Source: Gemmatimonadota bacterium
Lineage (GTDB): Bacteria; Gemmatimonadota; Gemmatimonadetes; Longimicrobiales; Gaopeijiaceae
Length of the DNA: 64,000 nt
Assembly: GCA_022826005.1 (NCBI GenBank)
Contig: JAJDVT010000100.1
Location: 1 to 64,000 of the forward strand
Reading direction: 5' to 3'
This document shows positions 4,736-57,826 of this stretch, in pieces; position 1 is the first letter of the stretch, and every line of letters begins with the position of its first letter. Under the pieces are notes generated by a model. That model saw nothing but the letters and a program-made list of their open reading frames with translations, was not told where the DNA came from and ran no database searches. Made by a program: the position numbers and the translations under genes.

Positions 4736-5998
4736 ATGGAATACGCCCCGGACCGGCCATGGTACATGCGCCTTCACTGGCAGGTGTTGATCGCAATGGC
4801 CCTCGGCATCGGCGTCGGCCTCTTGCCGGGAGGGGAAGTCGTCGAGGCGTACGTCGGCTGGGTCGGCAGCCTGTTCATGCGCCTCCTGAAAATGATCATC
4901 CTGCCGCTGGTCATCACCTCAATCGTCTCGGGGGTGGCATCGGCCGGAAGCGGGCGCACCGTGGGCCGGATGTTCGGCAAGACGCTGGGCTACTACATGG
5001 CGTCGAGCCTTCTGGCCGCGCTCACCGGCCTGCTCCTGTTTAACCTGATCAACCCCGGCCGTGGATACCCGGTTACCGACACCGGAGCGCCACCCCCTGA
5101 GCTTGCGACGCCCAGCTCCATCGAAGACCTGATCAATACCATCGTTCCCGACAATTTCTTCAACGCGGCGTCGGGCGGCGAAATGCTGATGGTCATCTTC
5201 TTCTGCATCGTCTTCGGAGCGGCCGTCACGACGCTGCCGGAGAGCCCCCGCGAGAAGATCACGAGTCTGGTCGACGCGCTCTTCAAGGCGATGATGGCGC
5301 TGACGACAGGCATCATCAAGCTGCTCCCGATCGGGGTCTTCGCGCTGTTGCTCACCACGGTCACCACCACGGGTCTGGAATCCTTCCCGAACCTTGCCAA
5401 GTACGTCGCGGGTCTCGGCTCGGGCCTCGCAATCCACTTCTTCATCACACTGCCGCTCCTGCTGTACTTCTGGGCGCGCGTGTCTCCATGGAAGCACGTG
5501 ATGAACATGCGAGAGCCGCTGCTGGTCGCGTTCTCGACCAGTTCCTCGGCGGCCACCCTGCCGGTCACCATGAAGACGGTGAGGGAAAGGGTCGGGGTGT
5601 CGCGCCGCGTGTCGTCGTTCACGCTGCCCATGGGCGCCACGGTGAACATGGACGGCACGGCGGTGATGGAGTGCGTGGGCGCGCTCTTCATCGCGCAGGC
5701 GCTGGGAGCCGACATCGGGGTCGGGACGCAGATCATCGTCGTCCTTACGGCCCTGCTGGCGTCGATCGGCGCCGCGGCGGTGCCATCCGCGGGGCTGGTG
5801 GTGATCTTCATCATCCTCGGCGCCATCGGCATCGGCGACAATCCCCAGGCGATGCTGATCGTGGCCGCGATGCTCTCCATCGACCGGCCGCTCGACATGT
5901 GCCGCACCGCTGTCAACGTTTACAGCGACTCGTGTGCAGCGGCGGTGGTTGGAAAATGGGAAGGGGAAGAGGGAATCGACGAGGAGATTCGAATGTAG
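4736..5998 (+). CDS. Dicarboxylate/amino acid:cation symporter (DAACS family, acidic substrate type)
   Basis: A 420-residue inner-membrane carrier of the glutamate/aspartate:Na+ symporter fold. The family motifs are in order: a serine-rich hairpin STSSSAATLPVT (about 263), NMDGTAVME (about 302), the second hairpin with GAAAVPSAG (about 345), and the TM8 segment DMCRTAVNVYSD (about 386-397). By comparison with archaeal GltPh, the Asp, Arg, Asn and Asp of TM8 match the residues that bind the substrate amino group, the side-chain carboxylate and sodium. The Arg favours an acidic substrate such as glutamate, aspartate or a C4-dicarboxylate. ATG at 4736 follows a GGAGAGA site. It appears monocistronic. 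Confidence 0.92.
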   Translation: MEYAPDRPWYMRLHWQVLIAMALGIGVGLLPGGEVVEAYVGWVGSLFMRLLKMIILPLVITSIVSGVASAGSGRTVGRMFGKTLGYYMASSLLAALTGLLLFNLINPGRGYPVTDTGAPPPELATPSSIEDLINTIVPDNFFNAASGGEMLMVIFFCIVFGAAVTTLPESPREKITSLVDALFKAMMALTTGIIKLLPIGVFALLLTTVTTTGLESFPNLAKYVAGLGSGLAIHFFITLPLLLYFWARVSPWKHVMNMREPLLVAFSTSSSAATLPVTMKTVRERVGVSRRVSSFTLPMGATVNMDGTAVMECVGALFIAQALGADIGVGTQIIVVLTALLASIGAAAVPSAGLVVIFIILGAIGIGDNPQAMLIVAAMLSIDRPLDMCRTAVNVYSDSCAAAVVGKWEGEEGIDEEIRM

Positions 5999-10076: not shown

Positions 10077-11339
10077 GTGAGACGGGGAGCCGCTCGGGTG
10101 GTAGCGGTGGGACAATGCGTGTTGGTCCTGTCGTCTTGCGGTTGCTCGGGCCCCGGCCCGGAGGAGGACACGGAAGCGGCGGATGTCGCGGACGGGCCTC
10201 TGGGCTGGGGCGGGCCGGTGAACGCCGCCGAGGTTCGGCGGTGGGCGCGGGAGGCTCTGGACGCGGCCCCCCGGTGGCGTGTTGCCCAGGAGGCCGACTA
10301 CTCGATGGTTCTCGATTCGGTGGACCTGAGGATTGGAGGCCACGTGATCAGGGTCCAGCGATTCGTGGCGAACGGCGCGTTCCGGCCGGACGGAAGAGTT
10401 GCTCTCCTGACTCGTACCGGCGGTTCGTCGCAGCCGGAATCTCCGCTGCTGTACCTGATTGACAGGATGAGTGGGCGGGTGACCAGGATCCCTGCCCCTT
10501 CGGGCGAGCCCGGCGAGTCGCTGGATTGGAACTCCTTCAGCATGGTCGCGGTTGAGCACGGGTTCGTTCTCGTAGGCGACAACTTTGGCCGTGCGCAGGG
10601 CAGGCGGCGCATCAGACGGACAGGACTGGATGTGTGGTTTGCCGACCGTGACGGGCGGTTCACGCGGCCTCCGTCGTACGTTGACGTGGATGGAGGGCCC
10701 CTTGGATCGTTTGCGGACGGATCATTGGTGATGTGGACCTACCCGGAGACCGCTGACACGACGATCGTCACCTGGATTGTGGCGGCACAGGCCAGGGAGG
10801 TCTCGTCCCGGGCTGCGGAGGGCCAGCAAGCTGACGTCCTCTTCAGGATCGCGAACCCCAGGGACCCCGATCGCCATGAAGTCCGCGCGTCCTGGACCTC
10901 GCACCCGGCGAACGTGACGGTCGTGGCGGGTGACACGATCTGGGTTCTGCCCACCGAGCGCCCCGAACTCGTCGCGGTGCACCGGTCGGGAGGCGTCCCG
11001 CTCATGGTTGAGTGGGATGCGGGGGACCGCTCCGTTCCGCCCGGGGCGCCACCCGACTACTGGAAGGGAGCGGAACGGTTTCCGGCGGCCGCGGAACTCC
11101 AGCTCGGGGCGGACGGTCTGCTCTACGTCGAGCGCTGGGCGGTGCTGGATCATCACGGACCGGTGCGCGGTCCGGAGTGGCTGGTCTTCTCCCAGGCCGG
11201 GGACCTGGTGGCCAGGCTCGATGTTCCACTGGGGTGGCGAGTCCTCGAATTCGGCCACGAAGAGGTGCTCGTGGTAGCGAGTGAGGACGGCGGCCCGGAC
11301 GAGGTCCGCATTCACGCAATCGAGCGCCAGCCGGGGTGA
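10077..11339 (+). CDS. Propeller-like lipoprotein, unknown function
   Basis: A 420-residue protein starting at GTG with AAGGAG upstream. The N-terminus carries a lipobox, LSSC (Cys about 21), followed by an acidic linker. The rest reads as a beta-propeller: RVALLTRTGGS, LYLIDRMSGRVTRIPAP, DVWFADRDGRF, LGADGLLYVERW and similar alternating strands with turns. It resembles the preceding 6-bladed propeller gene in overall plan but is more divergent. Attachment to a membrane is inferred from the lipobox. A GTAAnG tandem motif begins five bases after its stop codon. Confidence 0.65.
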   Translation: MRRGAARVVAVGQCVLVLSSCGCSGPGPEEDTEAADVADGPLGWGGPVNAAEVRRWAREALDAAPRWRVAQEADYSMVLDSVDLRIGGHVIRVQRFVANGAFRPDGRVALLTRTGGSSQPESPLLYLIDRMSGRVTRIPAPSGEPGESLDWNSFSMVAVEHGFVLVGDNFGRAQGRRRIRRTGLDVWFADRDGRFTRPPSYVDVDGGPLGSFADGSLVMWTYPETADTTIVTWIVAAQAREVSSRAAEGQQADVLFRIANPRDPDRHEVRASWTSHPANVTVVAGDTIWVLPTERPELVAVHRSGGVPLMVEWDAGDRSVPPGAPPDYWKGAERFPAAAELQLGADGLLYVERWAVLDHHGPVRGPEWLVFSQAGDLVARLDVPLGWRVLEFGHEEVLVVASEDGGPDEVRIHAIERQPG

Positions 11340-11343
11340 GGAT

Positions 11344-11380
11344 GTAAAGAAGACATTACGAAATGTAATGTAGACACGTC
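11344..11380. promoter_or_regulatory. Tandem GTAAnG-N4 motif, copy A
   Basis: Two 16-bp units, 11344-11359 (GTAAAGAAGACATTAC) and 11365-11380 (GTAATGTAGACACGTC), start 21 bp apart. Each unit is an imperfect dyad, GTAAnG-N4-CnnnnC. The stretch 11353-11371 can also fold as a 7-bp hairpin. It lies in the gap between two convergent genes. Confidence 0.5.
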
Positions 11381-11449
11381 ATTTTCTGCCTTTGTGCGGT
11401 GATTTCTGTTCCGGACAGACGCGAGTGGGACTCGGCGGTTAGGGGGGAG

Positions 11450-19574: not shown

Positions 19575-19593
19575 CGGCGTTGTGATAGCCCAG

Positions 19594-19666
19594 CTCCCGC
19601 GGCAGGACTCGAACCTGCGACCCGACGGTTAACAGCCGTCTGCTCTACCAGCTGAGCTACGCGGGA
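19594..19666 (-). tRNA. trnN: tRNA-Asn (GTT)
   Basis: A 73-nt cloverleaf: acceptor TCCCGCG with CGCGGGA, D arm GCTC/GAGC, anticodon stem GACGG/CCGTC around loop CTGTTAA (anticodon GTT), and T arm GCAGG-TTCGAGT-CCTGC. The discriminator is G, and CCA is not encoded (CTG follows). It is the only RNA gene seen in the window. Confidence 0.95.
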
Positions 19667-19839
19667 TTGCAACTGCGGCGAACGAAAATCGCACGAGGGC
19701 AGCGGCGCGTCAATGGCGAGTGTAACCCGGCTGCGGTTGATTCCCGGCGCCGTGGCTACCCATCTTCCACGCGTGTCGTACAGCGGCCTGCCCCGCCTGC
19801 ACCCTTCCCATCCATGGGGTCCCTTCCCATGACGGTTTC

Positions 19840-20275
19840 GTGCGGTTGTCGTCGGAATCTGTCGGAGTCCGCCGGCGCTTGTCCAGGACGGTGCGCGCGC
19901 GCCGAGCGGTGGCGGAGTCGGCAGAGGTCGTGATCGAGTTGTCACCGTCTCCCATTGCGCTGGAAGACCTGGTCGTGACGGCCACGATCAGCGAGCGCGC
20001 CGCAGCCGAGGCGCTCCGGCCGGTGAGCGTCATGACCGGCGATGTCTTGCAGCGCCAGATGACGGCGACCGTAGCGGGGACCCTGGCGTCAATGCCGGGG
20101 CTGGCCTCCACCGGGATGGGTCCATCGGTTGCGCAACCGGTGATCCGGGGACTGAGCGGGGACCGGGTACTGATGCTGGAGGACGGGACTGTGGTCGGGG
20201 ATGCCTCCAACCAGGGTGCGGACCACACCACCGCACTCGGTCTGGCTCTCGGCCGCGAAGTCGTCGGCCGCGGGA
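19840..20275 (+). pseudogene. TonB-dependent receptor plug-domain remnant
   Basis: The translated region shows the end of a carboxypeptidase-regulatory-like domain (EVVIELSPSPIALEDLVVTA) running into a plug domain (ISERAAAEALRPVSVM, TLASMPGLASTGMG, PVIRGLSGDRVLMLEDGT, SNQGADHTTA). It loses similarity near 20275. There is no signal peptide, no complete N-terminal domain and no beta-barrel, which would need 600 or more residues. The open frame continues to 20505, but that tail is unrelated low-information sequence. The rest of the gap to 20574 holds an 8-bp hairpin (20449-20467) and motif copy B. It lies next to tRNA-Asn, a common site of insertion and deletion. Confidence 0.75.
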
Positions 20276-20508
20276 GTCCCGTCGGGTCCGGGAGGCAGCC
20301 GCCCCAGGACACGACGGAGATCGATTGCCCGGCGGCGGCAAGGAGCGGGACGCCGGAAAGGAGCGGAGCGAGCCCCAGCAGTCCGTGGATAAACCCGCGT
20401 GAGCACCGAGAGCGGCTAAGCGCCGCGTTGGCGAGGCGCCTTGAGAGGCGAATAGCAGCGCTATTCGTCCGAAAGGCAACGAAGAGCCGAGTCTTGAGGA
20501 TGTGAGAT

Positions 20509-20545
20509 GTAAGGAGAACACGACACTTCGTAAAGCAGACACTAC
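20509..20545. promoter_or_regulatory. Tandem GTAAnG-N4 motif, copy B
   Basis: Units GTAAGGAGAACACGAC (20509-20524) and GTAAAGCAGACACTAC (20530-20545) start 21 bp apart. They align without gaps to copies A and C. The copy lies just after the receptor remnant and 29 bases before the end of the convergent GTPase gene. Confidence 0.5.
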
Positions 20546-20574
20546 AGCGCGAGTCCCCGTTGGAGGTAATGAAC

Positions 20575-23247: not shown

Positions 23248-23282
23248 CTTGCTTGGCCGGAGCGTGCTTTGGCGTCCCGAAC

Positions 23283-23319
23283 GTAAAGGAAACATGACTT
23301 CATGTAATGTTTACAGTAC
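23283..23319. promoter_or_regulatory. Tandem GTAAnG-N4 motif, copy C
   Basis: Units GTAAAGGAAACATGAC (23283-23298) and GTAATGTTTACAGTAC (23304-23319) start 21 bp apart. They end 55 bases before the acetamidase/formamidase start, a natural operator position. Confidence 0.6.
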
Positions 23320-23374
23320 AACAGTTCGCTGGCATCCAGCGAATCGCCCATCAAGCCAAGGAGAGACAGGCGCA

Positions 23375-38595: not shown

Positions 38596-38608
38596 TGGCG
38601 GCGGCCGC

Positions 38609-40621
38609 CTACCCCTCCGCGGCCAGGCGTTGCACCGCGTCGACGAGCTTGCCGACCTTGTCCGGGTCGGCCGCGCCGTCCTGCTGGTCCGCGAGTGAGG
38701 TCGCGAGTTCGGTCAGCATGTCGGTCCGCTCGGCGCCCATCGCCTCCTCCGCGGAATCCAGATCACCTCTCGCAGACGCGATCCGCCGGGAGGACAGCCC
38801 GCCCCAGCGCTCCAGCTGGTCCAGGTAGGCGCGCGCCAGCGCGAAGGTCGCCGGCCATTCGAAGATCGGCTGACCCTGGGAGTTGAGCTCGCTGAGCACC
38901 ACCGAGTTGGCGGCATCGATCTCGTTCTGGGTCAGAGCCTCGCTCGGCACCAGCTCGAAGATGTCGAGCCCCCGTGCGATCTCGGAGTTCACGATCACGC
39001 CGTTGTACCAGTAGACCGACCAGCTGCCCGCACTCTGCATCCGCTCCGGGTTGAGCGGGCCGCGGTCGTGGTAGGCGATCTCGACCGGGTTGGTCGGATC
39101 GGTCCAGTCGATGAGCGAAATGCCGCCCTGGTACCAGCCCTGGATCATGATGTCGCGGCCCGGGATCGGGATGAGGGAGCCGTTGTGGGCGACGCAGTTC
39201 TCCAGGTTGGTCTGCGCCGCGGGCATCTTGTAGTAGCTCTGGAAGACCATTTCGCCGTCTTCGATGGTGAAGATGGCGTTGGCGCCCCACTCCATGGGGT
39301 CGTCGAAGCGGCACTTCGGCGCGCCGCCTCCGCCCCACTCGTCCGTAAACATGACCTTGCTGCCGTCGTTGCTGAAGGTGGCGGAGTGCCAGTACGAGAA
39401 GTTGGAGTCGGCAACCGCCGCGAGCCGGAAGGGGTTGGCCGGGTCGGTAATGTCGAGGAGCAGTCCGTAGCCGCCGCAGGCGCCGCCCGCAAGGCCGATC
39501 GCGGGATAGACGGTGATGTCGTGGCACTGGGTCGGCCCGGGCCGCGGCTCGGGTGGGCCCTCGTCCTCTTCCTCCTCTGCCGCAGCCATCTCGTCGGCGT
39601 CCGCCTGCGCCTGTTCTTCAAGCTGCGCGCGCAGCGCCGCGCTGTCGGCAGCGGTCGGATCTCCTTCGCCGCCCCGCGCCTCCACGATGCTGTCCAGCAT
39701 GAGTGCGGCCAGGCGGTCGGGCATGACCCGGTCCTGGCCACGGCGCGTCATGATGAAGGCCCCCGCCGCGCGCGCCTCCTCGATTTCGCGGTAGTCCGCG
39801 GGCGAGAGGCCGTGCCGCGGCGGAGCGACCAGGTCCTGGAAGATCCGCGGCGAGGTCACGATCGCGGCGGCCGTTGGATCGTCCAGCGGAACCCGGATCA
39901 CCTCGATGCGGAACAGCGCCGAGTTCGGATCCTCCTCGGGCGACAGGCCGGAACACCCGGCGAGCTCCTCGGGCGGCCGCACCGACGACGATCCGGAGAC
40001 GTAGATGTAGACGTTCTCGTCGTCGCCGGGGTGCTTCAGCACGGTGTGGGTGTGCGAACCCCGGCAGGTCTGCACGTTCGCGACGTACTCCGGATTGGAA
40101 ATGTCGGAGATGTCGAAGATGCGAATGCCGCGCAGGCGCTCGTGGCTGATCGCCTCCGGCACGCCCTGGTCGCCGCAGTCGAGCCGTCCTCCACGCCCCT
40201 CACCCGACACGAAGAGGAGGTCGCCGTACACGGAAACGTCGCTCTGCGAAGCCGGGCAGACGTAGGTGATCACCGAGGTCGGGTTCGCCGGATCGGAGAC
40301 GTCCCACACCTGGATGCCGTCGTAGTTGCCCTGGATGGCGTAGTTGCCGGTGAAGGCGAGGTCGGAGTTGGTGCTTCCGACGAACGGCTCCTCCGGCGGC
40401 GTGGTCGACAGCATGCGCATGTTCCAGATCGCCTCGCCCGCGTCGAACATGCCGGCCTCGAGGCCGACGCGCGGGTCGGGGGTGGGCGGGTTGAGCTGGA
40501 GGCCGCCGGGCCGCGATTCGCAGCCGTGCAGAGCGGCCACCAGCAGGGCCGCGAAGGAAAGGAGGGCGGGGAGGCGCGTCGCCGTGCGACGGTGGCCGCT
40601 GGGGAGGTCGGTCGGTCTCAT
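38609..40621 (-). CDS. LVIVD-repeat lipoprotein, paralogue C
   Basis: A 670-residue exported lipoprotein (lipobox LHGC, Cys34). A propeller of LVIVD repeats follows: YAIQGNYDGIQVWDVSDPANPTSV, SDVSVYGDLLFVSGEGRG, GIRIFDISDISNPEYVANVQTC, HTVLKHPGDDENVYIYVSG, LLLDITDPANPFRLAAVADS, SLIDWTDPTNPVEIAYHDRG and YWYNGVIVNSEIARGLDIFEL. An acidic, Glu-rich insertion lies at about 330-360 (QADADEMAAAEEEEDEG), and the C-terminal 100 residues are helical. RBS AGGAAGAG is seven bases upstream. It sits 18 bases after the DUF305 gene. The ligand is unknown. Confidence 0.85.
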   Translation of the reverse strand: MRPTDLPSGHRRTATRLPALLSFAALLVAALHGCESRPGGLQLNPPTPDPRVGLEAGMFDAGEAIWNMRMLSTTPPEEPFVGSTNSDLAFTGNYAIQGNYDGIQVWDVSDPANPTSVITYVCPASQSDVSVYGDLLFVSGEGRGGRLDCGDQGVPEAISHERLRGIRIFDISDISNPEYVANVQTCRGSHTHTVLKHPGDDENVYIYVSGSSSVRPPEELAGCSGLSPEEDPNSALFRIEVIRVPLDDPTAAAIVTSPRIFQDLVAPPRHGLSPADYREIEEARAAGAFIMTRRGQDRVMPDRLAALMLDSIVEARGGEGDPTAADSAALRAQLEEQAQADADEMAAAEEEEDEGPPEPRPGPTQCHDITVYPAIGLAGGACGGYGLLLDITDPANPFRLAAVADSNFSYWHSATFSNDGSKVMFTDEWGGGGAPKCRFDDPMEWGANAIFTIEDGEMVFQSYYKMPAAQTNLENCVAHNGSLIPIPGRDIMIQGWYQGGISLIDWTDPTNPVEIAYHDRGPLNPERMQSAGSWSVYWYNGVIVNSEIARGLDIFELVPSEALTQNEIDAANSVVLSELNSQGQPIFEWPATFALARAYLDQLERWGGLSSRRIASARGDLDSAEEAMGAERTDMLTELATSLADQQDGAADPDKVGKLVDAVQRLAAEG

Positions 40622-40639
40622 GGTACTCTTCCTGACTGG

Positions 40640-41368
40640 TTACTGATTCGCTCCACCGAGCGCCTCCAGCATCTGCTCCATCCGGTCGATCTCGGAGCCC
40701 TGATCGGCCTGAATGTCGGAGGCGAGCTTGAATATGAAGTCGTCCTGGGCGGCGCCGTCCGTGGCGAACAGCTCGAGCACCATGGTTACCGCCCCCTTGT
40801 GGTGCTTGATCATATACCGCAGGAACACGCGGTCGTAGTCGCCGCCGCGTGCCTGCCGCAGTTCCTCCATCTCTTCGTCGGTCAGCATGCCCGGCATGTG
40901 CATCGCGTGCGCGGGACCGTGAATCGTCAGGTGGCCCGCCTCGACGTGGATCTCGGGCACTTCGAGTTCACGGTCGCGCAGCCAGATCTGCATGATGTTG
41001 ATTTCGTCGCGCTGCGCGTTGATGATCCGGGCGCAGAGGGTCTGGATGGTTTCGCTGGCGCCGTTGTCCGGCGCGATCCCGCACATGGCCAGCGCCTGTG
41101 CATGGTGGTTGATCATCCCGGTCATGAAGTGGACATCGGCCTCGTGGTAGTACATGAGGGCGCTGTCCGCACGGGCCCGGTAGATGGCCTCCAGGCGCGC
41201 GGCGGTGGCCGCGTCCGGCCGGGTGACGCCGGGGCCGGGTTCGGTGGAGGGGGTCTCGGCGGCGTCGGGCTCGGCGGGAGGCGCGGGCGTGCCGCCCGAT
41301 CCGCCGGGGCAGGCCTGGATCGCGGCGACAAGAATCGTGGTGAAAAGCGTCCGGCTGATCATGGGCAT
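40640..41368 (-). CDS. DUF305 domain lipoprotein-like protein
   Basis: A 242-residue protein. The N-terminus has a signal with a QAC site (about Cys20), then a Pro/Ala/Glu-rich linker to about residue 55. The DUF305 ferritin-like helical domain carries the two family signatures, HFMTGMINHHAQALAMC (about 80-96) and FLRYMIKHHKGAVTM (about 187-201). Each supplies a His-His pair that in this family is proposed to bind metal. Several Met-rich spots (HAMHMPGMLT) suggest copper, which is an inference. It lies between LVIVD paralogues B and C in the same direction. Confidence 0.88.
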   Translation of the reverse strand: MPMISRTLFTTILVAAIQACPGGSGGTPAPPAEPDAAETPSTEPGPGVTRPDAATAARLEAIYRARADSALMYYHEADVHFMTGMINHHAQALAMCGIAPDNGASETIQTLCARIINAQRDEINIMQIWLRDRELEVPEIHVEAGHLTIHGPAHAMHMPGMLTDEEMEELRQARGGDYDRVFLRYMIKHHKGAVTMVLELFATDGAAQDDFIFKLASDIQADQGSEIDRMEQMLEALGGANQ

Positions 41369-41525
41369 ATCGAGGCTGGGCCGTGGGGCCTTGCTCGCCC
41401 CCCGGGCGAGTCAAGCGGATTGGTGAATCATACGGTGGCCCGGTGGTCGCACGCCAGCCCCCCGGCGGCACAGCGCGGCCGGAGGGCTGGCACTTCGTGG
41501 GCCGGCTGCCGACTGATCGCTGGCG

Positions 41526-43589
41526 CTATCCTCCATCCGCCAGCCGCCGGACCGCGTCGGCGAGCTTCGCGACCTTGTCCGGGTCGGCCGCGTCTGCCGT
41601 CTGCGCGGCGAGAGTGGCTGCGAGTGCGTTCAGGGTGGCCCGGCGCCCGGCGACCGAAGCGCGTTCCGCCGTGCGCAGTGCGCTTCGGGCGGAACTGACC
41701 TGACCTGCCGGCATGCCGTGCCAGCGCTCCAGCTGGTCCAGGTATGCCCGCGCCAGCGCGAAGGTCGCCGCCCACTCGAAGATCGGCTGGCCCTGGGAAT
41801 TCAGGTGCGTCAGCTGAACCGAGTTCGCTGCGTCGATCTCGTTCTGCGTCAGCGCGCTGCTAGGCACGAGCTCGAAGATGTCCAGTCCACGCTGAATCTC
41901 CGAGTTCACGATCACACCGTTGTACCAGTAGACGGACCAGCTGCCGGCCATGGACGGCTGGTCGGCCATGAACGGACCGCGGTCGTGGTAGCCGATCTCG
42001 ACGGGGTTCTGCGGGTCCGTCCAGTCGATCAGCGAGATGCCGCCCTGGTACCACCCCTGGATCATGATGTCGCGTCCCGGCACCGGGATGAGCGAGCCGT
42101 TGTGGGCGACGCAGTTCTCGAAGTCCGTCTGCGCCGCGGGCATCTTGAAGTAGCTCTGGAAGACCATCTCCCCGTCCTCGACCGTGAAGATGGCGTTGGC
42201 GCCCCACTCCATCGGGTCGTCGGCGCGGCACTTCGGTCCCATGCCGCCGCCCCACTCGTCGGTGAACATGATCTTGCTGCCGTCGTTGCTGAACGTGGCC
42301 GAGTGCCAGTACGCGAAATTGGAATCGGCCACGGCAGCGAGTCGGCGCGGATTGGCGGGATCGGTGATGTCGAGGAGCAAGCCGTAGCCCTCGCACGCAC
42401 CGCCGGCCAGCCCGATCGCGGGATAGACGGTGATGTCGTGGCACTGGTTCGGGCCGGGTGCGGGGCCATCGCCGCCGCCCGGAGAGATACCGGCCATCAT
42501 CTCCGCGACCATTTCGTCGAAATAGTCGCGCAGGGCGGTGCTGTCGGCCGCGTTTGGCGGACCCTCCCCTCCACGCGCGTCGACGATGCTGTCCAACATC
42601 GGCGTGGTGAACTGGGGAGGAAGCACCTGGACCTGTCCCATGATCTCGATGACGAACTGCCCCTGGGCGCGGGCTTCCTCGACCGCCTTCAGGTCGGCCG
42701 GGGAAGCACCGTGTTGCGGCGGCGCGACCAGGTCCTCGAAGATCCGCGGTGAACTCACGATTGCCGCCGACGCGGGATCGGCTAGAGGCACGCGGATCAC
42801 TTCGATACGGAACAGGGCCGTATTGGGGTCTTCCTGGGGGGAAAGTGCCGAGCAGCCGGGGAGTTCCTCCGCAGGCCGCACGGGAGCCGACCCTGAGACA
42901 TAGATGTAGACGTTCTCGTCGTCGCCGGGGTGCTTCAGCACCGTGTGGGTGTGCGATCCCCGGCAGGTTTGCACGTTCCCGACATACTGCGGAGCCGTGA
43001 TGTCCGAGATGTCGAAGATGCGAATGCCCCGGATCCGCTCGTGACTGACAGCCCCCTGGACCCCCTCGGTGCCGCAATCGAGCCGGGCGCTGTTGTCCTC
43101 GCCGGAGACGAAGAGGAGGTGCTCGTACACCGACACGTCGCTCTGGGAGGCCGGGCAGACGTAGCTCACCACGGAGACCGGATTGGCCGGGTCGGAGATG
43201 TCCCACACCTGGATCCCGTTGAAGTTGCCCTGGATGGCGTAATCCCCGGTAAACGCGAGGTCGGAGTTGATCCCCCCGACGAATGCGTCCGGGGGCGGCG
43301 TCGTGGACAGCATGCGCAGGTTCCAGATCGCTTCGCCCGCGTCGAACATTCCGGGCGCCAGGCCGACGCGGGGATCCGGGGTGGGCGGGTTCACCTGCAG
43401 GCCGGGCGGGTAGAGGTACCCGATATCGATGACGCCAGGCTGCTGGGGGCCCGTGTTCAGCCCGGGTACGCTCACCGAAGCCTGCGTCGCGCAGCCGGGG
43501 ATCGAGAGCAGCAGAGCCCCGAACGCGAGTAGGCCCGCGAGGCGAATTCGATTTGGTGAATAGTCAGCCACGTTGCGTGTCGGCGTCAT
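41526..43589 (-). CDS. LVIVD-repeat lipoprotein, paralogue B
   Basis: A 687-residue protein with the same architecture as paralogue C: signal with SIPGC (Cys33), a GLQVNPPTPDPRVGLAPGMFD lead-in, then LVIVD repeats (GIQVWDISDPANPVSVVSYV, GIRIFDISDITAPQYVGNVQ, LLLDITDPANPRRLAAVADS, SLIDWTDPQNPVEIGYHDRG). A short acidic/Met-rich insertion at about 345-375 (FDEMVAEMMAGISPGGGDG) replaces the Glu-rich one of C. The C-terminal domain is helical with a repeated ADAADPDKVAKLADAV motif. It lies 51 bases after A and 157 bases before DUF305. Confidence 0.85.
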   Translation of the reverse strand: MTPTRNVADYSPNRIRLAGLLAFGALLLSIPGCATQASVSVPGLNTGPQQPGVIDIGYLYPPGLQVNPPTPDPRVGLAPGMFDAGEAIWNLRMLSTTPPPDAFVGGINSDLAFTGDYAIQGNFNGIQVWDISDPANPVSVVSYVCPASQSDVSVYEHLLFVSGEDNSARLDCGTEGVQGAVSHERIRGIRIFDISDITAPQYVGNVQTCRGSHTHTVLKHPGDDENVYIYVSGSAPVRPAEELPGCSALSPQEDPNTALFRIEVIRVPLADPASAAIVSSPRIFEDLVAPPQHGASPADLKAVEEARAQGQFVIEIMGQVQVLPPQFTTPMLDSIVDARGGEGPPNAADSTALRDYFDEMVAEMMAGISPGGGDGPAPGPNQCHDITVYPAIGLAGGACEGYGLLLDITDPANPRRLAAVADSNFAYWHSATFSNDGSKIMFTDEWGGGMGPKCRADDPMEWGANAIFTVEDGEMVFQSYFKMPAAQTDFENCVAHNGSLIPVPGRDIMIQGWYQGGISLIDWTDPQNPVEIGYHDRGPFMADQPSMAGSWSVYWYNGVIVNSEIQRGLDIFELVPSSALTQNEIDAANSVQLTHLNSQGQPIFEWAATFALARAYLDQLERWHGMPAGQVSSARSALRTAERASVAGRRATLNALAATLAAQTADAADPDKVAKLADAVRRLADGG

Positions 43590-43640
43590 GTTGTCTGTTC
43601 CTTGTCAGTGTTCGTTTTGATAGTATCACTCGACCGGTGT

Positions 43641-45725
43641 TCACCCGGCCAGACGCTCCACGGCGTCGGCAAGTTTCTCGACCTTGTCCGGGTCCCCCGC
43701 TCCGGCCGCCTGCTCGCGGAGCGACGCCGCCAGCGCCTGCAACCCATCGCGCCGCGCCGCTCCGGAAGCACGCTCGGCGTCGGCCAGCCCACTGCGCGCC
43801 GCCTCGACGTCCTCCGCCGGCAGGCCGTGCCAGCGCTCGATCTGGTCAAGATAGGCCCGCGCCAGCGCGAAGGTCGCAGGCCACTCGAAGATGGGCTGCC
43901 CCTGTGAATTCAGCTCGGTCAGCCGCACCGAATTGGCCGCGTCGATTTCGTTCCGGGTCAGGGCCTCGTTGGGGACGAGTTCGAAGATGTCGAGCCCGCG
44001 GGCGATCTCGGAGTTCACGATCACCCCGTTGTACCAGTAGACGGACCAGCTGCCGCCGGGCTCCATGCGCTCGGCGTTGAGCGGACCGCGGTCGTGGTAT
44101 CCGATTTCGACGGGATTGGCCGGGTCGGTCCAGTCGATCAGCGAGATGCCGCCCTGGTACCACCCCTGAATCATGATGTCGCGCCCGGGCACCGGGATCA
44201 GCGAGCCGTTGTGTGCGACGCAGTTCTCCTGGTCCGTCTGGGCCGCCGGAAGCTTGTAGTAGCTCCGGAAGACCATCTCTCCGTCGTCGATCGTGAAGAC
44301 GGCGTTGGCGCCCCACTCCACGGGGTCGTCAACGCGGCACTTCGGCGCCAGCCCGCCGCCCCACTCGTCGGTGAACATGATCTTGCTGCCGTCGTTGCTG
44401 AAGGTGGCCGAATGCCAGATGGAGAAGTTGGAGTCCGCCACCGCCTGCAGGCGGACGGGATTGATGGGGTCCGTGATGTCCAGGAGCAGGCCGTAGCCCA
44501 GGCACGCGCCGCCGGCGAGGCCGATTGCCGGGTACACGGTGATGTCGTGGCACTGGTTCGGGCCGGGGCGCGGCTCGTCGCCGGCGGCAGGGCGGCGGCC
44601 GCCCATGGGCATCATCATGGCGGGCATCGATGCCCGCGTAGCCTCGTCCAGGGCCTCGCTCAGCGCGGCGCTGTCGGCTGTGGTGTGCGGGCCGTCACCC
44701 CCCCGCGCGGCAACGATGCTGTCCAGCTTCTCGGCCGCCTCCGCCGCGGGCAGAACGCTCAGCCGGTCCTCGACCTCCACCACGAAGTCACCCCGCTCCC
44801 GTGCCTCGGCGGCGCGCGCCCTCCGCTCCTCCGCGCGGGCCAGCCGTCTCTCTTCCATCCTGGCCTCCGCTTCCTCCCTCGCCCGGATATCGCCCGGCGC
44901 GGGACCGTGCCTCGGCGGCGCGACCAGATCCTGGAAGATCCTGGGCGAACTCACCACCGCGGCCGCCTCCGGATTGTCCAGCGGCACGCGGATCACCTCG
45001 ATGCGGAAGAGCGCCGAATTGGGATCCTCTTCCGGAGAGAACGCCGAACACCCGGGAAGTTCCTCGGAAGGCCGCACCGTCGACGAGCCCGACACGTAGA
45101 TGTAGACGTTCTCGTCGTCGCCCGGGTGCTCCAGCACGGTGTGCGTGTGCGAGCCGCGGCAGGTCTGCACGTTTGCCACGTACTGCGGATCGGCGATATC
45201 GGAGATGTCGAAGATGCGGATCCCGCGGAGCCGCTCGTGGCTGACCGCCTCTCGCACCCCTTCGTCGCCGCAGTCCAGCCGGGCGCTGTTGTCCTCACCG
45301 GAAACGAATAGGAGGTTGCCGTACACCGACACGTCGCTCTGCGAAGCCGGGCAGTAGTAGGTGACGACCGGCACCGGGCCGGCGGGATCGGAGATGTCCC
45401 ACACCTGCACCCCGTTGAAGTTCCCCTGGATCGCATAGTTGCCGGTGAAGGCCAGATCCGAGTTGAAGCTTCCCAGGAATTCCTCCGGCGGGGGCGTCGT
45501 CGACAGCAGCTCCAGGTTCCAGCTCGCCTCTCCCGCGTCGAACATCCCGGCGGCGAGGCCGACCCGGGGATCGGGGGTGGGGGGATTGACCTGGAGGCCG
45601 GGCGGGTTCGCGTAGGAGGGGCCCGAGCAGCTGGCGGCGGCGAGGAAGGTGATGGAGAAGGTGAGCACCGCGGTGAGTTGCGCCGGAGCGGCGCGGGACG
45701 GCTTCGCGTTGGCGATCGGTCTCAT
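43641..45725 (-). CDS. LVIVD-repeat lipoprotein, paralogue A
   Basis: A 694-residue lipoprotein (lipobox LAAASC, Cys33); ATG at 45725 was preferred over one 22 codons upstream because it matches the start of paralogue C. The repeats are near-identical to B and C. A distinguishing insertion at about 305-350 is a charged Arg/Glu/Ala coiled stretch (EEAEARMEERRLARAEERRA), then an AAEAAEKLDSIV helix. The C-terminal helical domain ends with PDKVEKLADAVERL, shared by all three. It is the first gene of the A-B-DUF305-C array and is divergent from the MFS gene, with a 245-base gap. Confidence 0.85.
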   Translation of the reverse strand: MRPIANAKPSRAAPAQLTAVLTFSITFLAAASCSGPSYANPPGLQVNPPTPDPRVGLAAGMFDAGEASWNLELLSTTPPPEEFLGSFNSDLAFTGNYAIQGNFNGVQVWDISDPAGPVPVVTYYCPASQSDVSVYGNLLFVSGEDNSARLDCGDEGVREAVSHERLRGIRIFDISDIADPQYVANVQTCRGSHTHTVLEHPGDDENVYIYVSGSSTVRPSEELPGCSAFSPEEDPNSALFRIEVIRVPLDNPEAAAVVSSPRIFQDLVAPPRHGPAPGDIRAREEAEARMEERRLARAEERRARAAEARERGDFVVEVEDRLSVLPAAEAAEKLDSIVAARGGDGPHTTADSAALSEALDEATRASMPAMMMPMGGRRPAAGDEPRPGPNQCHDITVYPAIGLAGGACLGYGLLLDITDPINPVRLQAVADSNFSIWHSATFSNDGSKIMFTDEWGGGLAPKCRVDDPVEWGANAVFTIDDGEMVFRSYYKLPAAQTDQENCVAHNGSLIPVPGRDIMIQGWYQGGISLIDWTDPANPVEIGYHDRGPLNAERMEPGGSWSVYWYNGVIVNSEIARGLDIFELVPNEALTRNEIDAANSVRLTELNSQGQPIFEWPATFALARAYLDQIERWHGLPAEDVEAARSGLADAERASGAARRDGLQALAASLREQAAGAGDPDKVEKLADAVERLAG

Positions 45726-57789: not shown

Positions 57790-57826
57790 GTAATGCATAC
57801 TGTACATAGTGTAATGCGCAGTTGTC
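57790..57826. promoter_or_regulatory. Tandem GTAAnG-N4 motif, copy D
   Basis: Units GTAATGCATACTGTAC (57790-57805) and GTAATGCGCAGTTGTC (57811-57826) start 21 bp apart. The second is degenerate and contains the proposed ATG (57814). TTGAGA (57772-57777) with CATACT (57796-57801) could be a promoter overlapped by the motif. Confidence 0.45.

Follow-up and report, generated by a model that had tools for sequence, protein, structure and literature searches.

Tandem dyads in the window

The window, a stretch of 64,000 nucleotides of Gemmatimonadota DNA, contains four loci, A to D, at which two palindromic dyads follow one another with a step of 21 bp. The dyad pair GTAAnGnnnACAnnAC-N5-GTAAnGnnnACAnnAC occurs at sites A, B and C, against an expected number of 0. 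Measured against the pattern GTAANGNNNACANNAC-N5-GTAANGNNNACANNAC, site A has 1 mismatch and sites B and C have 0, and 100 dinucleotide shuffles of the window yield 0 matches, which confirms the tandem arrangement that a sequence-only reading of this DNA had described. At the 21-bp step, A to D are the highest-scoring loci in the window; scores at other steps are lower.

Site A (11344..11380, forward strand; GTAAAGAAGACATTAC-GAAAT-GTAATGTAGACACGTC) lies in a convergent gap and starts 5 bases past a stop codon. An orthologue is present in the related genome G022 (2 mismatches) and a decayed copy in G020 (3 mismatches), while synteny alignment reveals that the segment holding the site (11330..11447) is missing in G008, where two convergent genes almost abut. 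Site B (20509..20545, forward strand; GTAAGGAGAACACGAC-ACTTC-GTAAAGCAGACACTAC) lies in a region of ~850 bp (19722..20573) that adjoins tRNA-Asn, is absent in G022 and G005, and holds a gene remnant and a 3′-truncated copy of a miniature inverted-repeat (MITE-like) element. This copy (20378..20547, forward strand; positions 1–170 of 247, with 94% identity to the consensus) is the 247-bp form ending right after the dyad. The earlier placement of both A and B in convergent gaps just after stop codons holds for A and fails for B, where the preceding forward-strand reading frame is a remnant and the intact neighbours both lie on the reverse strand. This remnant, a truncated frame next to the MITE copy, is TonB-plug-like by eye. 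The tRNA-Asn gene is found at 19593–19666.

Site C (23283..23319, forward strand; GTAAAGGAAACATGAC-TTCAT-GTAATGTTTACAGTAC) ends 55 bases ahead of the start of an acetamidase/formamidase-family gene, as had been noted. G008 has this site; G022 and G005 lack it, and synteny delimits the segment absent from both to ~95 bp (23248..23342). Site D (57790..57826, forward strand) is degenerate and is indeed the weaker fourth copy it was taken for: it carries 4 mismatches, yet scores 23.1 with the position weight matrix described below, which finds no match in reversed control DNA even when the threshold is lowered to 4. The region around D is unalignable in G022. Since A and C have been gained or lost among close relatives, selection on single sites is not strong. 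The window holds no obvious regulator gene, in line with the first reading, and its stretch 38600–45600 contains several tandem paralogous genes, visible as cross-matching blocks in the synteny BLAST.

Architecture of the site

The site logo comprises a 37-bp core with an A/T preference at both edges. Each 21-bp unit is an inverted dyad of the G-N14-C type, and the palindromes of a pair lie exactly two helical turns apart, on one face of the DNA; a few arrays (L041, L043 and L103) have three units. Across the genus the invariant frame is GTnA-N8-TnAC-N5-GTnA-N8-TnAC, within which the half-sites drift between species. The most frequent half-sites are GTAATGT and GTCATGT, and alternative forms are present in genus members that seem poor in sites (GTATACT in G012, GTCAACT in G021).

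The variable bases at positions i and i+21 co-vary in agreement, and positions 14 and 24, which would pair in a hairpin, are anti-complementary (z −4.8). Because the first agree and hairpin pairing is contradicted, the two dyads are related as a direct repeat. A hairpin, terminator or REP/BIME-like element acting as RNA would likewise be palindromic, intergenic and dispersed, and would sometimes overlap stop codons as these sites do. Such an element is very improbable here, given the direct-repeat covariation, a logo without a T-run, and Rfam matches in the window that are to tRNA alone, with none to the dyad motif. The BIME/REP sequences of enterobacteria occur in more than 100 intergenic copies, are restricted to particular taxa and contain sites for IHF and gyrase (PMC2817692). 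The dyad resembles them in being numerous, intergenic and taxon-restricted. It differs from REP sequences, which form tagged hairpins and are linked to RAYT transposases, in that its core repeats directly and gives no indication of pairing as a hairpin. The GTAG tag is absent from the site logo, and hairpin covariation is not found.

The operators of LytTR regulators consist of direct repeats of 9 bp that recur every 21 bp, and they have no inner dyad. A two-site LytTR-like regulator had been proposed for the motif, and a co-varying direct period of 21 bp is present here; each unit is, however, itself an inverted G-N14-C dyad, which makes a regulator of this kind less likely.

Copy number and taxonomic range

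The window belongs to genome G000 (4.85 Mb in 143 contigs). A scan of this genome with a 20-position pattern, allowing up to 3 mismatches, gives 103 forward and 95 reverse matches, compared with 0 and 1 for the control, in which the pattern is read backwards. A weight matrix (PWM) based on 178 unique sites picks out 29 in a contiguous 450 kb of G000 and 0 in the reversed sequence; by extrapolation, a genome holds ~300 sites. The pattern is present in 21 of 59 relatives. All 21 belong to one genus, and the other genera examined lack it. This genus belongs to the marine BD2-11 Gemmatimonadota, and the named records with matches are BD2-11-clade Gemmatimonadetes metagenome-assembled genomes, with a few isolated matches elsewhere. 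When only the invariant frame is searched for, 22 of the 23 genus members have 13–176 copies, while controls have ~0 and other genera 0–3. The proposed scan of the genome and its relatives is therefore strongly positive, and the idea of a repeated site of protein-binding type, with two dyads on one DNA face and many copies, is upheld. The motif is absent from the viral contigs searched.

Two sites occupy orthologous positions across several genomes of a sister genus. In sister genus g12 (L295–L297, site at 5001), a conserved dyad lies ~100 bp before a gene for an XRE-HTH/PBP-like regulator, which is followed in three species by genes for a molybdate-type ABC transporter. This XRE-PBP regulator was considered as the binder and rejected, as the genus DNA searched contains no homologue. 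Further apparent sister-genus copies, in L298 (G066) and L301 (G067), may reflect bin contamination or transfer and were left out of account, since the FmdA protein of G067 falls inside the G015 clade; the contigs concerned are binned in the sister genus and their genes are very close to those of the motif-bearing genus.

Position relative to genes

Genomic position was assessed in 1.16 Mb of G000, G021 and G022 DNA, chosen irrespective of sites. Intergenic DNA makes up 18% of this sample and holds 46 of the 48 sites (p about 5e-32). The number of sites per gap is 0.088 for tandem, 0.062 for convergent and 0.072 for divergent gaps, and these frequencies show that promoter-containing gaps are not favoured; many sites are located at stop codons or between convergent genes. 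An apparent shortage in divergent gaps in 450 kb (p 0.015) disappears in the 1.16-Mb sample (p 0.41). Nor are the sites evenly spaced: the gaps between them in G021, a single contig, have a coefficient of variation of 1.00, as for random placement. Canonical intrinsic terminators (a GC hairpin followed by a T-run) are found in ~2% of the tandem and convergent gaps of the same three genomes.

The sequence-only reading had taken the sites for operators through which one regulator controls a regulon, and had anticipated enrichment upstream of genes. Intergenic enrichment is seen, and promoter gaps are not preferred within it. The operator model draws on the tandem sites on one DNA face, on the closeness of C and D to gene starts and on the finding that certain genes have a site ahead of them in more than one species. 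A precedent is the TyrR box, TGTAAA-N6-TTTACA, in which the G-N14-C pair is invariant and adjacent boxes are bound cooperatively (PMC4374768); each dyad here has the same geometry, TGTMAW-N6-WTKACA with a G-N14-C pair. Unlike the dyad network, TyrR governs few promoters. The 99 genes downstream of sites represent 146 Pfam families without a functional theme, no regulator or transcription-factor gene recurs beside the sites among the neighbouring genes searched, and a sigma-54 −24/−12 promoter lies within 350 bp of 1 of 93 sites. With one site inside a coding region, ~300 randomly spaced sites per genome, unrelated flanking genes and about a third of the sites carried by a mobile element, promoter operators of one regulator are an improbable explanation.

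TyrR itself has a Fis-type HTH. The TyrR-type HTH (PF18024) was rejected as the candidate binder: it has no match in G003 or in the site-rich G021, and elsewhere its matches are weak in most of the genus and equally common in genera without sites.

A MITE-like element carries part of the sites

About one-third of 130 sampled sites have ~250 bp of flanking sequence in common and in register. This shared sequence constitutes a MITE-like element whose inverted ends are GCAGTCCGTGGATAAACC and TTTTGTCCACGGGCTGC, and full-length copies are flanked by unrelated DNA. Two size classes exist, 247 bp (M247) and 172 bp (M172), both too short to encode a transposase. The dyad, part of an internal block of M247 that is missing from the short form, is present in 41 of 42 M247 copies, compared with 1 of 16 M172 copies. 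The 3′ half of the element has at least 40 copies in G000, and copies of the MITE occur in all genus members. A target-site duplication may exist; it would be weak, 2 bp long and TA-like (agreement 0.529, compared with 0.435 ± 0.031 expected). No autonomous transposase with the ends of the MITE was found in the part of the genomic DNA searched, and the literature yielded no earlier description of a MITE in Gemmatimonadota.

The main rival to a host function is a purely selfish one, in which the dyad is an internal site for transposition or copy control of this MITE and its kin, and the scattered sites are debris. Its near-constant presence in M247 fits this idea, as do MITE homology that frequently begins or ends at the motif edges and the finding that the segments holding A to D are each absent or unalignable in some relative. 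Against it, M172 is multicopy and has intact ends without the dyad; the dyad is therefore unnecessary for movement. The unique flanks of sites in G021, where almost nothing is common beyond the motif, also speak against debris, as does a site within a gene that is retained in several species despite turnover of the adjacent sequence. A purely selfish function is unlikely, if slightly less so than operators.

Constraint on the motif

Among 42 long MITEs, selected by their end repeats alone, the majority base reaches 0.91 at the GTnA positions of the dyad, about the value of the end repeats, compared with 0.61–0.67 in the surroundings of the dyad and 0.64 at the N positions of the motif. Conservation beyond the MITE is seen in orthologous convergent and tandem gaps (L001/L119/L068 and L010/L046/L098), where the site is kept and the flanks have diverged. 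The site within a gene lies in the part of a nucleotidyltransferase gene (L257–L276) that encodes a variable loop; G013, G002 and G015 retain it, G000 and G008 have a degenerate version, and in other species GC-rich filler takes its place. Part of this evidence for retention is biased because the loci were picked for having sites, and some sites that seem to lie outside MITEs may derive from other families of small elements. In the length-variable loop the motif is translated (for example as SNADITLCNANMT), a coding stretch that has apparently been shaped by the DNA site.

A genus member without sites

G009 is the only exception among the 23 genus members, with 0 frame-bearing sites in its genome. 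It has kept the MITE, and the full-length copies recovered from it are all M172 without the dyad (11 of 11). In a tree of the protein encoded by the gene next to site C, G009 falls inside the genus as sister to G013/G002/G015. Joint loss of the sites, both within the MITE and elsewhere, would be expected if a trans-acting factor had disappeared; from one genome placed by one gene tree, such a disappearance is an inference.

A proposed dispersed protein-binding site

The dyad pair is best explained as the dispersed site of one putative DNA-binding protein, X, sequence-specific, cooperative and restricted to the genus; the sites would be seeded in part by the MITE, kept in part by selection, distinct from promoter operators and chromosome-wide in their role. 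We give this reading a probability of roughly 0.65. Protein binding, a single binder and the effect of binding are what we infer from the distribution and conservation of the sites. An invariant frame with drifting half-sites in 22 of 23 genus members is the pattern expected for a co-evolving binder.

Under the preferred reading, X would bind as two side-by-side dimers to four GTMA half-sites, arranged as two G-N14-C dyads 21 bp apart. M247 would place and move part of the ~300 randomly scattered intergenic sites; at many sites, selection acting solely on the motif would afterwards preserve it as its surroundings diverge. X may then act chromosome-wide, by organising or insulating DNA or by bounding transcription. 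A fuller version, which we put at slightly under even odds, is a chromosome-wide network of protein and sites in which the site is a removable module renewed by the MITE and selected outside promoters, G009 having lost all sites and site-bearing MITEs while keeping the MITE itself.

Few bacterial cases are known in which mobile elements spread the binding sites of a chromosomal host protein, and telling function from hitch-hiking is difficult. The genus offers a natural experiment in this respect, with 22 congeneric genomes, a modular site in the same MITE, drifting half-sites and one species in which all sites are lost. Should the binder be identified, it is likely to prove a new factor, from a rarely cultured phylum, that organises the chromosome or acts as a boundary.

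Comparison with known systems

Dispersed palindromes of similar size act on the chromosome and not on promoters in several systems, including parS/ParB, Noc, SlmA and MatP-matS. The dyad differs from these in sequence and in a distribution that is not uneven, as judged from one single-contig genome (G021).

In the Correia elements (CREE) of Neisseria, an internal IHF site can be present in the longest form but in no other (PMC2649163). The likeness to the MITE is one of design only: both are genus-wide, have discrete size classes with a long form that holds an internal site and a short form that does not, and vary in presence or absence between strains. The ends, motif and sizes differ (247/172 bp, compared with 153–157/104–108 bp for CREE). 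Unlike the CREE site, the dyad is also plentiful outside its MITE, and in one species, G009, both the dyad-bearing MITEs and the outside sites have been lost.
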